Source: Longimicrobiales bacterium | GTDB lineage: Bacteria; Gemmatimonadota; Gemmatimonadetes; Longimicrobiales; Gaopeijiaceae | Assembly (NCBI GenBank): GCA_028823235.1 | Contig: JAPKBW010000006.1 | Location: 62,001 to 126,000 of the forward strand | Length of the DNA stretch: 64,000 nt | Direction of reading: 5' to 3' | Part shown: one piece after another, positions 25,681 through 32,964 of the stretch | Layout: the number at the start of each line of letters is the position of its first letter | How positions within the stretch are numbered: the stretch's first letter is position 1 | Program-made: the position numbers and the translations under genes | Notes under the pieces: generated by a model | Database searches by the model: none | Seen by the model: only the letters and a program-made list of their open reading frames with translations | What the model was told of the DNA's origin: nothing

Positions 25681-25972
25681 CTAATTCGCGAACGGGTTCG
25701 AGAAACGCGGATCTGGCAGTAGCGCCTCGGCGGCGAGAGCGGGCATGAGGGACCCCCGGGCGGCGTAGCCATAGCCTCGCTTGAAGAACGCCTCACTCTG
25801 ATACACGAGAGCCTGCTCTCGTCGCTGAACATCGAACGCGGCGTCAAAGAGCGCTTCGATGTTTGCAACTGTGACCTCACGGGCGGGACCACCATCGATC
25901 GATCGGCTCTGGCCATCCGGATGCCGCGACCGACCGAAGCGTGAGGCGAACCATCACATTTCTTGGCTTCAT
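25681..25972 (-). pseudogene. Frameshifted gene fragment, unknown family
   Basis: ATG at 25972 opens MKPRNVMVRLTLRSVAASGW and PEPIDRWWSR, then hits TGA. Removing one C from the CCC run near 25885 restores a frame reading REVTVANIEALFDAAFDVQR, then EQALVYQSEAFFKRGYGYAA and PALAAEALLPDPRFSNPFAN, ending TAG at 25683-25681. The joined protein would have about 97 residues. The family is not recognised. A single-base sequencing error would explain it equally well as true decay, but the next gene is also broken. Confidence 0.4.
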
Positions 25973-26089
25973 GCCCCGCGGCCATCACATCTGTTGCCGC
26001 GCTCGGTCCAGGACCATCGTTCTTCAGTGCTACTCCACACGCCTCCATCCTGACGACGGACAGGGCTCGTTCATTTCGTCCAGTCCCCA

Positions 26090-27159
26090 ATGAATCCACA
26101 CGAAACCCTCGGCGCGCGCTATGCGATCGTCCTCGCACTCTGTGCGACTCTGGTTGCGGCGTTACGGCCGACCAGACCGCGTACGGTGACACTGACGCCC
26201 CCGAGGTGATTTGGCGCAAGGGGCCTCGGCTCCCCCAGCCGATCACCAACAACACGGTGGCCGCCATCGAGATTGATGGGAAGATTTCGGTCTTCTCCTT
26301 CCTCGGGCTGGACTCGACAAAGGTCTGGAGCGGCGTAACCAACGCAGCGTATCGGTGGGACGTCGGAGTCGATCAGTGGGCCGCCATTGATCCGGTCCCC
26401 GGCCCCGGTCGTCTGGCCGCCACGGCCCAAGTCGTGGACGGCCGGATCTACGTCATCGGCGGCTACACGGTGGCCGAAGACGGGGGAGAGCGATCTCTCT
26501 CGGACGTGGCGATCTACGACCCGTCGAGCGATGCGTGGAGCCGTGGAGCGGATATCCCCGTCCCCACCGACGATGCCGCGTCGGGTGTATGGCAAGGAGA
26601 AGAGATCGCCCTGGTCTCCGGATGGCACGACACGGATAACATCACCGACGTTCAGTTTTACAACCCGGCATCGGACTCATGGCAGGCCGGCTCACCGATA
26701 CCAGGACGTCCGGTATTCGGCCATACGGGAGCGATCGTGGAGACCCGTCCCTGATTCGTCATCGACACGGCCTCCTGGGTGGGGAGACTCCCCGCCGACG
26801 ATCTCACCGATGTGTCCTGGGCCCTGATCTCTCCTCATCCGGGGCCACCACTCTACCGCGCAGCGTCCGGCGCCATCGGTGACTACGCCACCTTCGTCGG
26901 AGGGACGGACAATCCCTACAACTACAGCGGAATCGGATACGACGGGGTGCCCTCCGAGCCGATCCGTCAGATTCTCACCTACGCCCCGGACCTCGATCTG
27001 TGGGGCGAGCTACCGCCGCTGCCGGTCGCAACCATGGATCATCGCAACGTGGGCCTGGCCGGCGGACAGGTGTTCGTCGCAGGTGGAATGCTCAAAGGCT
27101 AGATCGTGAGTGATCACGTCTGGGTCGCCGAGGTGTCCCGACTGATTGGGTCTCGATAA
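26090..27159 (+). pseudogene. Broken Kelch-repeat (galactose-oxidase-like propeller) secreted protein
   Basis: Signal peptide in one frame (ARYAIVLALCATLVAA), then a shift near 26155 into the main frame, which reads Kelch blades: GRLAATAQVVDGRIYVIGGY, DVAIYDPSSDAWSRGADIPV, FYNPASDSWQAGSPIPGRPV. TGA at 26752-26754 interrupts it; the same frame resumes FVIDTASWVGRLPADDLTDV, PPLYRAASGAIGDYATFVGG and GELPPLPVATMDHRNVGLAG. A TAG at 27100-27102 follows, and the frame still codes IVSDHVWVAEVSRLIGSR before TAA. Kelch motifs (GG, Y...W) are well kept, so decay is recent. Confidence 0.75.
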
Positions 27160-28021: not shown

Positions 28022-28053
28022 GGGGTCGTCGGGTTCGCCCGGCGGCCCTTTTT
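28022..28053 (+). terminator. Rho-independent terminator after the OmpA gene
   Basis: A 12-pair stem (left arm 28022-28033, right arm 28038-28049, with some G-T pairs) capped by a TTCG tetraloop and followed by TTTT. It lies 48 bases after the OmpA stop. Confidence 0.85.
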
Positions 28054-28359: not shown

Positions 28360-29241
28360 TTGGTACACAAATCTCCTTTCAAGCCCGACCACCGACTGTT
28401 CCCGTTCGAGTCGAAATGGTTCGACAGCCGTGTCGGGAAGGTCCACTACGTGGACGAAGGGGCCGGCGATCCGATCCTGCTTCTGCACGGAAACCCGACA
28501 TGGAGTTTCCTCTATCGCGGAATCATCATCCGCCTGAAGAAACACTTCAGGTGTATCGCCGTCGACTATCCGGGATTCGGTCTTTCGACCCGCCCCGATA
28601 CGTATGGGTACACTCCAGCCGAACAGGCCAACGTCGTGCGGGATCTGGTGCGACACCTCGATCTTAAAAACCTGACAATTATGGGGCAGGACTGGGGTGG
28701 CCCCATCGGGCTCAGGGTCGCCGTCGATGAACTGCCTCGAGTCCGGGCCTTGGTCATGGGTAACACGTGGTTCTGGCCGGTGGATTCATGGCAGGGAAAG
28801 TCATTCGCATACGTGATGTCGATGGCCCCGGTGCAGAGCCAGATTATCAATAACAATTTCTTCGTCGAGAAAGTCATGCCGTGGGCAGTGAAGCACCCGC
28901 TTTCCGACGAAGTCATGGACCACTATCGAGAAGCGCTCCCGACACCCACCAGCCGCATGGGTGTAGCGGAGTTCCCTGTCCAGTTGATGGCAGCGACACA
29001 CTGGCTCAGGGATCTGGAGGAAGATGTGCAGACCTCCCTCCCACACGTGCCGATGCTCCTGACCTGGGGCATGCACGATCTGATGTTCACACGGCCGTTC
29101 ATGGAGCGTTTCCGGGAGACGTTTACCAACTGCCGGGTGCAGCGCCTCGACGCCAAGCACTACATCCAGGAAGACGCCCCGAAGGAGATTTCTGCAGCGA
29201 TCCAGTCGTTCCTCGAGTCTCCGGGCAAGGAGGGCGCATGA
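28360..29241 (+). CDS. Haloalkane dehalogenase-like alpha/beta hydrolase
   Basis: 293 residues from TTG at 28360 (AAGAGAA upstream); the frame is open to an ATG at 28237, but the extra 41 residues look unrelated. Motifs: oxyanion loop HGNPTWSFLYR, nucleophile elbow GQDWGGPIGLR with Asp as nucleophile followed by a Trp, an Asp in LTWGMHDLMF, and His in DAKHYIQED. Asp nucleophile, Trp next to it and Asn in HGNP are the haloalkane dehalogenase signature (covalent Asp ester, halide held by Trp and Asn). It cleaves carbon-halogen bonds or related esters. Its stop overlaps the start of crcB (ATGA), which hints that halide, possibly fluoride, is released. Confidence 0.8.
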   Translation: MVHKSPFKPDHRLFPFESKWFDSRVGKVHYVDEGAGDPILLLHGNPTWSFLYRGIIIRLKKHFRCIAVDYPGFGLSTRPDTYGYTPAEQANVVRDLVRHLDLKNLTIMGQDWGGPIGLRVAVDELPRVRALVMGNTWFWPVDSWQGKSFAYVMSMAPVQSQIINNNFFVEKVMPWAVKHPLSDEVMDHYREALPTPTSRMGVAEFPVQLMAATHWLRDLEEDVQTSLPHVPMLLTWGMHDLMFTRPFMERFRETFTNCRVQRLDAKHYIQEDAPKEISAAIQSFLESPGKEGA

Positions 29242-29621
29242 CACCGATCGTTGTAGGTCTGGGCGGGGCGCTGGGTGCGCTCACCCGCTACTACGGCACC
29301 GAATTTGTCCGGCGACTAGTCGGTGATTCACTGCCATGGGGCACCTTCGCGGTCAACATCATCGGGGCCTTCGCCCTGGGCTTCCTCATGGTATGGCTTC
29401 AGTCGCGCGCGCCATCGACTCAGGTTCGACAGTTCATCGGAATCGGGTTCCTCGGATCGTTCACGACGTTCAGCACCTTCAGCTACGAAACCGTGGCCAT
29501 GGCCCGCGAGGGCCATTTCTGGCAGGCCGGCGGATACGCGGCTTCATCCATGGCCTTCGGGATCGTCGCAGTAGTCGCGGGCGCGGTCATCGCCTCTACG
29601 CTCAGTCCGACGGGAAATTGA
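29238..29621 (+). CDS. crcB: Fluoride ion channel CrcB/Fluc
   Basis: 127 residues with four helices. The ATG at 29238 overlaps the hydrolase stop, and AAGGAGGG lies just upstream. Fluc signatures are all present: GGALGALTRYY in helix 1, WGTFAVNIIGAFALGF with the pore Asn in helix 2, and GFLGSFTTFSTFSYE with the phenylalanine box in helix 3. Dual-topology dimers of this protein export fluoride. No fluoride riboswitch is visible upstream of the hydrolase; control is presumably shared with the hydrolase. Confidence 0.93.
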   Translation: MTPIVVGLGGALGALTRYYGTEFVRRLVGDSLPWGTFAVNIIGAFALGFLMVWLQSRAPSTQVRQFIGIGFLGSFTTFSTFSYETVAMAREGHFWQAGGYAASSMAFGIVAVVAGAVIASTLSPTGN

Positions 29622-30964: not shown

Positions 30965-31591
30965 TTATGCGGCGAGCAGCCCCCCAGAGAGGGGTGAGAC
31001 CGAGTAGGTCCTCCCATCTTGGTCCAGAAAGTAGTCGGGTGATTCAGCCCGCAGTACGCGGTGGTCGATAGGTCCCCACCCAACGGCCGCCGTTTTCGTT
31101 CCTGCTGATTCCCCCGCGCGAAGGGCATTCGGCAAATCACCGACGAACAGCACCCGCGTCGGGTCGAGATGAATATTGAGAGCCCAGCACCGGCTCTGGG
31201 TGAGGCTTCTCACGCACAACCTGATCGCCGCACACCACGAACTCGAACAGGTCGCCCAGCCCACACACATCCATGGTCTGTCAGGCAATCCGATGACCCT
31301 TACTCGTGACGACGCCCACGCGGGTGCCACGACCCTTCAGCTGATTGACCACATCGATGGCACCCGGAAAGGGTTGAACCATCTCATCGTGGACGCTCCG
31401 CTGATACACGACATACGTCTCCAGCATGGCGAGGCGCTCGTCCTCACTCCGCGCTAAGTCGGCCAATTGAATCGGCAGGGTCTGGCCTATGGTCTCGAGG
31501 AACCGTGTGTCAGGCGGAGCTTCTTCAGGATGAGATCTACCGTGTCTACGAGAGTGCCGTCGATGTCGAAAAGGACGCCGGTCCAGCTCAG
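30965..31591 (-). pseudogene. Broken HAD-IA phosphatase (phosphoglycolate phosphatase-like)
   Basis: The gene follows the aminotransferase with overlapping ends but is split over several frames. WTGVLFDIDGTLVDTVDLI (motif I, DxDGT) ends at a TAG after LTHGSSRP. Another frame holds PPDTRFLETIGQTLPIQLAD and PFPGAIDVVNQLKGRGTRVG with motif II (VVTSKGH), stopping at 31281. A third gives QTMDVCGLGDLFEFVVCGDQ and VVREKPHPEPVLG (motif III Lys), and a fourth HLDPTRVLFVGDLPNALRAG (motif IV) to the TAA at 30965. All HAD motifs survive, so breakage is recent or reflects sequence errors. Confidence 0.75.
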
Positions 31592-32964
31592 AGGACTTCT
31601 CTCGCAGCCCGCCCAATCGTCCCGACCGCGAAGGTCACCTGCTCGTCGGTCAGGACCACCGGTGGACTGAACTCCACCACCTCGCCCACCTCACCGGCGG
31701 GAAGAACGATCAGTCCATCCCGAAGAACTCTCTCCGCGATGCGAACCCCGGCACCCGCGTCCGGTCCACCACGGGCATCTTCGAATTCGACACCGATCAG
31801 GAGCCCGAGGCCACGCACTTCGCGCACTCCCTCGACGGATCTGAGCTCGGCCTTCAGAGCCTCCAGTAGTTGGATTCCACGCCGCTCCGACTGGTCGGAA
31901 ATGGCTTCGGACTCAAAGACCTCAAGCGCACCAATCGCTGCTGAACACGCGAGTGGGTGTCCAAGAAAGGTGCTGGTGTGCACCGCTTCACCGCCGCTAT
32001 CAGGCCAGGCATCCATGATTTCCGCAGGGGCCATGCAGGCCGAAATCGGAAGCCCTGCTCCAAGCGACTTTCCCACGCAAACGATGTCAGGCCGTAATCC
32101 GACCCGGGAAGAGGCGAGCGTGGCTCCGCACCTGCCAAGGCCCGTGAATATCTCATCTGCGATCACAATAGCCGAAAATGCGGCTGCCAGATCGGAGAGC
32201 TCCGACATAAAGCCGTCCGGAGCGAGACGGGCACCACCACGTGCCTGCATCGGCTCAACGATGATGGCGCCGATCTCATCACCGTTGGGTGCCCCATCGC
32301 TGAGGAAGACCCTGATCCGCTCTAGGGCATCCTCGGCAGAGCAGCGGTTGGTCTCGGCATCCGTGCCACGCCGGGCTCTTGCTCCTTCCGGCCAGGGGGC
32401 GAACGCGACACCACCGTAGAGCCGGCGTTCGAAGCCACTCCGGAAGTGCGGACGCTCCGTTACCGCAAGTGACCCCAGTGTGAGGCCATGATAGCTCCCT
32501 TCGAATGCTAGAACGCCCGGGCGGCCGGAAGCGAGCGCCGCGGTCTTGAGCGCGACCTCGACCGCTTCCGACCCGGTGCTTCCCAGAACGATGCGGGTTT
32601 CGTCCCACGGAGACAGTTCGGCCAACCGCTCAAGGAGCTCCAGCTTCCGAACAGGCGGGTGAATGTCGCCCATCCCATGGATCAGCCGCTCTTCCCGGAG
32701 GGCCTTCTCCAGGGGCGCACTCCGGTGTCCGAGCAAGGCTACACCGAACGCTGAGGTCAGGTCGATGAACACATTGCCGTCGGCATCGCGCACATTCGCA
32801 CCCTCAGCCTCCGACCAGAACACAGGCCAGTCCGGACTACTCCAAGTGATGTTTCGTGACTCGACCTTCGAGAGCCGAGCCGCCATCTCGCGCGAGCGGG
32901 GGCCGGGCGGTGTGCTGACGATTCTGGGCAGCTGTTTACCAAACGGCCGGTCGCCCTGGTTCAC
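31588..32964 (-). CDS. Class III PLP-dependent aminotransferase
   Basis: 458 residues from GTG at 32964, which overlaps the last base of the fabI stop (TAGTG). Motifs of the GabT/ArgD/BioA family: VFIDLTSAFGVALLGH, GSTGSEAVEVALKTA (phosphate cup), FEGSYHGLTLGSLA, IIVEPMQARGG, VIADEIFTGLGR with the Asp that contacts the PLP nitrogen, and the Schiff-base lysine in CVGKSLGAGLP. Substrate is not predictable; the enzyme could use omega-amino or ornithine-like donors. Placement next to fabI is probably by operon, not by pathway. Confidence 0.88.
   Translation of the reverse strand: MNQGDRPFGKQLPRIVSTPPGPRSREMAARLSKVESRNITWSSPDWPVFWSEAEGANVRDADGNVFIDLTSAFGVALLGHRSAPLEKALREERLIHGMGDIHPPVRKLELLERLAELSPWDETRIVLGSTGSEAVEVALKTAALASGRPGVLAFEGSYHGLTLGSLAVTERPHFRSGFERRLYGGVAFAPWPEGARARRGTDAETNRCSAEDALERIRVFLSDGAPNGDEIGAIIVEPMQARGGARLAPDGFMSELSDLAAAFSAIVIADEIFTGLGRCGATLASSRVGLRPDIVCVGKSLGAGLPISACMAPAEIMDAWPDSGGEAVHTSTFLGHPLACSAAIGALEVFESEAISDQSERRGIQLLEALKAELRSVEGVREVRGLGLLIGVEFEDARGGPDAGAGVRIAERVLRDGLIVLPAGEVGEVVEFSPPVVLTDEQVTFAVGTIGRAAREVL

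Follow-up and report, generated by a model that had tools for sequence, protein, structure and literature searches.

Anatomy of the two-gene locus

The window analysed here, a stretch of 64,000 nucleotides from a Longimicrobiales bacterium, harbors a tightly packed pair of genes on its forward strand, in which the gene of an alpha/beta hydrolase is directly followed by crcB, the gene of a fluoride channel. The hydrolase frame starts with TTG at 28360 and ends with the TGA at 29239-29241, crcB runs from the ATG at 29238 to a TGA ending at 29621, and the two frames share the four bases ATGA, just as the preliminary description of this DNA had read them. The TTG start fits the orthologues, which carry TTG, GTG or ATG near the same spot. 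The features of the locus are as follows:

28031-28048 (+): terminator-like hairpin and T run downstream of the preceding OmpA-family gene (consensus match only)
28360-29241 (+): HLD-III-like (DmbC/DhmeA-type) alpha/beta hydrolase, 293 aa, with the pentad Asn45, Asp111, Trp112, Asp240 and His267
29227-29233 (+): AAGGAGG, Shine-Dalgarno-like, read from the sequence within the last hydrolase codons, 4 nt ahead of the crcB ATG
29238-29241 (+): ATGA overlap of the hydrolase stop and the crcB start
29238-29621 (+): crcB, encoding the Fluc fluoride channel (127 aa), present once in the genome
29713-30189 (+): Septum_form-domain gene, the downstream neighbour of crcB, found after crcB in six relatives, two of them without the hydrolase

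If the consensus match at 28031-28048 is a working terminator, hydrolase and crcB would form a transcription unit of their own. Two further genes of the window appear interrupted. A HAD-family (PF13419) gene at 30965-31616 on the reverse strand apparently lies in two frames, which could reflect a pseudogene, a frameshift or an assembly error, and a Kelch-repeat gene at 25963-27102 (+) has a stop at 26754 and an open frame again from 26779; the latter has no counterpart in those regions of relatives that were compared.

Identity of the hydrolase and of the channel

Profile search placed the hydrolase in Pfam Abhydrolase_1, and its best NCBIfam model was haloalkane dehalogenase PRK03204 (349.9 bits, under the equivalog cut-off of 466). 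The AlphaFold model of the protein (pLDDT 88, pTM 0.89) has a helical-cap fold that is nearest to structures of subfamily III haloalkane dehalogenases (HLD-III): the top PDB matches are the DhmeA entries 8ckp and 8ooh, and DhmeA, the closest fold, shares 34% identity with the hydrolase at a TM score of 0.88. Members of this subfamily are recognized by a pentad composed of Asp-His-Asp plus Asn-Trp (PMC6920932, PMC10503415). The complete pentad is present in the window hydrolase: Asn45 stands in HGNP, Asp111 and Trp112 in GQDWGG, and Asp240 and His267 follow. The Trp beside the nucleophile and the Asn of HGNP, both pointed out before, are thus found where they had been placed. Thereby the enzyme shares the pentad and the cap-domain alpha/beta-hydrolase fold with DhmeA of Haloferax mediterranei and DmbC of Mycobacterium bovis, and differs from them in its operon-like unit with crcB and in its PRK03204 score below the equivalog cut-off. 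Beyond Gemmatimonadota, its closest relatives are for the most part proteins of Mycobacterium, at 50-54% identity. All five pentad residues are present in 27 of the 28 orthologues of the family.

The exception is G002, in which the nucleophile Asp111 is replaced by Glu (codon GAG) while the rest is conserved and crcB still lies directly behind; judged from the sequence, the enzyme may be inactive or a base may be wrong.

Fluoroacetate dehalogenase is also an alpha/beta-hydrolase with an Asp nucleophile and a His base, and we compared the hydrolase with RPA1163 (PDB 3r3u), to which it is 26% identical. The Asp-Arg-x-x-Arg nucleophile elbow of that enzyme, which supplies the carboxylate-binding Arg111 and Arg114, is not present in the hydrolase, where Trp112 and Pro115 stand at these positions in 28 of 28 orthologues. 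Conversely, fluoroacetate dehalogenase lacks the Asn and the Trp of the HLD pentad, and the window hydrolase has both. The residues His155, Trp156 and Tyr219, which we take to be the fluoride pocket of fluoroacetate dehalogenase, correspond to a gap, a gap and Pro, in a cap region where the alignment is uncertain. Assignment of the hydrolase as a fluoroacetate dehalogenase was rejected on these residues.

The crcB product scores 104.8 bits against the CRCB domain of Pfam (curated cut-off 32.9) and 101.8 against TIGR00494 (cut-off 80.45). It has the motifs GGALGALTRYY, NIIGAF and GFLGSFTTFSTF in common with Fluc/CrcB channels and belongs to the single-gene (homodimer) type. By domain and motifs it is a genuine CrcB/Fluc protein and a predicted fluoride exporter, so the earlier reading of an HLD-type enzyme next to a genuine CrcB holds on both sides. 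The gene is present in one copy in the 3.14-Mb genome, and a tblastn search for crcB on plasmids gave no match. What distinguishes it from other Fluc/CrcB genes is the HLD-III gene as the upstream partner, the DUF190 gene behind it in some relatives and the lack of a fluoride riboswitch: RF01734 had no match in the window or in its own genome. Among 98 relatives, seven had RF01734 matches (eight loci); crcB was near at five of the eight, and none of the matches adjoined a hydrolase match.

Conservation and separation of the partners

The survey covered 121 genomes from one family of Longimicrobiales, Gemmatimonadota. An orthologue of the hydrolase (identity at least 58%) was found in 28 of them, and in 18 of these 28 species, which represent seven genera, crcB lies directly behind the hydrolase in the same orientation, the intergenic distance being -4 to +1 nt (nine pairs in the window's own genus g1, two each in g34, g13 and g39, one each in g20, g7 and g18). 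Among these pairs crcB is frameshifted in G148 (g20) and cut by a contig end in G010. No gene has been found between the co-directional partners, though the genes upstream come and go. Furthermore, crcB is present in 24 of the 28 family genomes with the hydrolase and in 26 of the 93 without it (Fisher 7e-8, a figure inflated by relatedness). The adjacency survey had been set beforehand as the test by which the proposed link could be refuted; it found the adjacency conserved in these 18 of 28 orthologues and above chance, within a block whose gene order is generally conserved. The adjacency of hydrolase and crcB is therefore real, inherited and more than chance.

The partners are nevertheless separable. 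In G003 and G012 of genus g1, crcB occupies the same site, after an aldolase gene and before the Septum_form gene, and the hydrolase is missing; since these crcB genes are nested in the paired g1 clade of the crcB tree, the hydrolase was lost there. The opposite loss is seen in genus g20, in which the hydrolase of G032 is intact and crcB is reduced to a stub of about 10 codons followed by a tRNA-like stretch, while the frameshift in G148, again behind an intact hydrolase, represents a second mode of crcB decay. Comparison of the hydrolases of G032 and G148 gave a dN of 0.068 and a dS of 0.48, that is, purifying selection. Elsewhere a convergent crcB lies behind the hydrolase: it is whole in G137 and, 2.7 kb distant, in G015, and a remnant in G018, G041 and G136. 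The convergent genes group elsewhere in the crcB tree, with weak support. In genus g5 the hydrolase is present and crcB is located elsewhere.

A DUF190-like gene directly follows crcB in five genomes of the family (G155, G156, G054, G147 and G019), which gives the order hydrolase-crcB-DUF190. The order crcB-DUF190 is also found in other families of Longimicrobiales, and therefore crcB-DUF190 looks the more general association.

Outside the family we surveyed 80 genome-contig loci of hydrolase relatives with flanks of up to 5 kb, some contigs ending sooner. At the 71 loci outside Gemmatimonadota no crcB was found within these flanks, and eight of the nine Gemmatimonadota loci had crcB or what remains of it, the exception being L065.

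Probable meaning of the gene pair

What, then, holds the two genes together? The reading we consider probable is that they form a vertically inherited, translationally coupled two-gene operon, in which the Fluc channel is expressed together with an HLD-III enzyme whose substrate carries no fluorine. By the mechanism of HLDs, Asp111 would attack the substrate carbon while the leaving group is bound by Asn45 and Trp112, and His267 together with Asp240 would activate the water that hydrolyses the covalent ester. The natural substrate would most likely be a non-fluorinated one, either a chloro or bromo compound or, as with OleB, a strained ester or lactone; to our knowledge there is no agreement on the natural substrate of HLD-III enzymes. 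Fluc, the only one of the cell, would let out fluoride that came in from the environment, and the ATGA overlap would couple translation of crcB to that of the hydrolase, which amounts to shared expression and not to a pathway that produces and exports fluoride. Because features of known defluorinases are lacking and each gene survives alone, the two genes probably share one transcription unit and do not make up a C-F pathway. Still, the observation that no gene was found between hydrolase and crcB in any co-directional pair, together with their co-occurrence, counts against a reading of mere shared expression.

The preliminary description had gone further and proposed that the hydrolase frees fluoride from a C-F compound and that CrcB exports the fluoride released in the cell, the pair being a unit of degradation and self-protection. 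One would argue for it from the tight coupling kept in seven genera, from the sole copy of crcB in the genome, from the co-occurrence of both genes across the family and from HLD chemistry, which frees halide in the cytoplasm. However, the literature describes HLDs as enzymes that do not defluorinate (PMC6100074), organofluorines and defluorinases are seldom met in nature (PMC11139923), and all five fluoroacetate dehalogenase residues considered above (Arg111, Arg114, His155, Trp156 and Tyr219) are replaced or missing. The unit is also seen in one family only and carries no riboswitch, its genes lie apart in several species, an intact hydrolase persists where the adjacent crcB was lost or broken, and unrelated pairs of the same block are equally conserved. 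Thus neither the release of fluoride nor the self-protection unit was borne out, and we consider this explanation very unlikely. Its strongest form, that the Gemmatimonadota HLD-III clade evolved natural C-F hydrolysis with the Asn-Trp halide site in place of the fluoroacetate dehalogenase pocket, translationally coupled to the Fluc which removes the fluoride, is likewise very unlikely.

Another alternative is that hydrolase and crcB are mere neighbours, independent genes fixed together by slow rearrangement, whose coupling has no selective value. The region of the window is syntenic in relatives (aconitase ... OmpA - hydrolase - crcB - tRNAs - PCD - aminotransferase - enoyl reductase), and tight pairs of this block without obvious shared function are as conserved as hydrolase-crcB: in the same sample aminotransferase-enoyl reductase was adjacent in 9 of 10 cases, Na/Ca exchanger-polX in 5 of 5 and polX-ligA in 4 of 4, compared to 13 of 15 for hydrolase-crcB. 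Mere neighbourhood would also suit G024, G051 and G159, which have no hydrolase orthologue and carry crcB near aconitase or PCD/aminotransferase, as well as G015 and G137, where a whole crcB is convergent with the hydrolase gene. Against it stands the gap of -4 to +1 nt, which is held in 18 species by differing stop/start arrangements and suggests selection for coupled translation; for this reason mere neighbourhood appears to us rather unlikely. The possibility that the hydrolase is an OleB-like beta-lactone decarboxylase of lipid or hydrocarbon metabolism draws on the fact that OleB, with the same pentad, is a putative member of the subfamily (PMC10503415). Dehalogenase activity is low in HLD-III members (PMC10503415). 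No oleA-, oleC- or oleD-like gene is present among the annotated neighbours of the hydrolase at this locus, though, and an AMP-ligase motif lies near only 3 of the 80 related loci (a motif scan, which is not decisive). We regard this identity as very unlikely. The pair is a genuine operon-like unit and is most likely co-expressed, and nothing that was found points to an enzyme making fluoride.

A precedent calls for caution over any fluorine reading of hydrolase and crcB. Haloacid dehalogenase genes near fluoride riboswitches, which resemble our case in having the name 'dehalogenase' beside fluoride genes, were initially interpreted as parts of fluorine metabolism, and the majority of enzymes with that fold have turned out to be phosphoesterases (PMC11139923). 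The literature joining fluoride, haloalkane dehalogenase and CrcB, judged by titles and the openings of abstracts, deals with PFAS degradation and metagenomes or consists of reviews, and this pair may be mentioned in those texts. An HLD-III gene coupled to a fluoride channel is a cheap and specific candidate for an assay, a modest lead and not a new system, for which the species that lost either partner are natural controls. If the C-F reading were true, the alpha/beta-hydrolases would include a second family of natural defluorinases of independent origin; if the enzyme proves inactive on C-F bonds, it will be another warning against inferring fluorine metabolism from a 'dehalogenase' beside crcB.

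Fluoride riboswitches of the relatives were also seen beside other genes. In G031 (L175) and G054 (L176), which belong to two genera, the riboswitch lies directly 5' of a frame for a dynamin-like GTPase, as judged from motifs by eye, and at another locus of G054 (L181) it lies near a small uncharacterised gene and a bactofilin-like gene.
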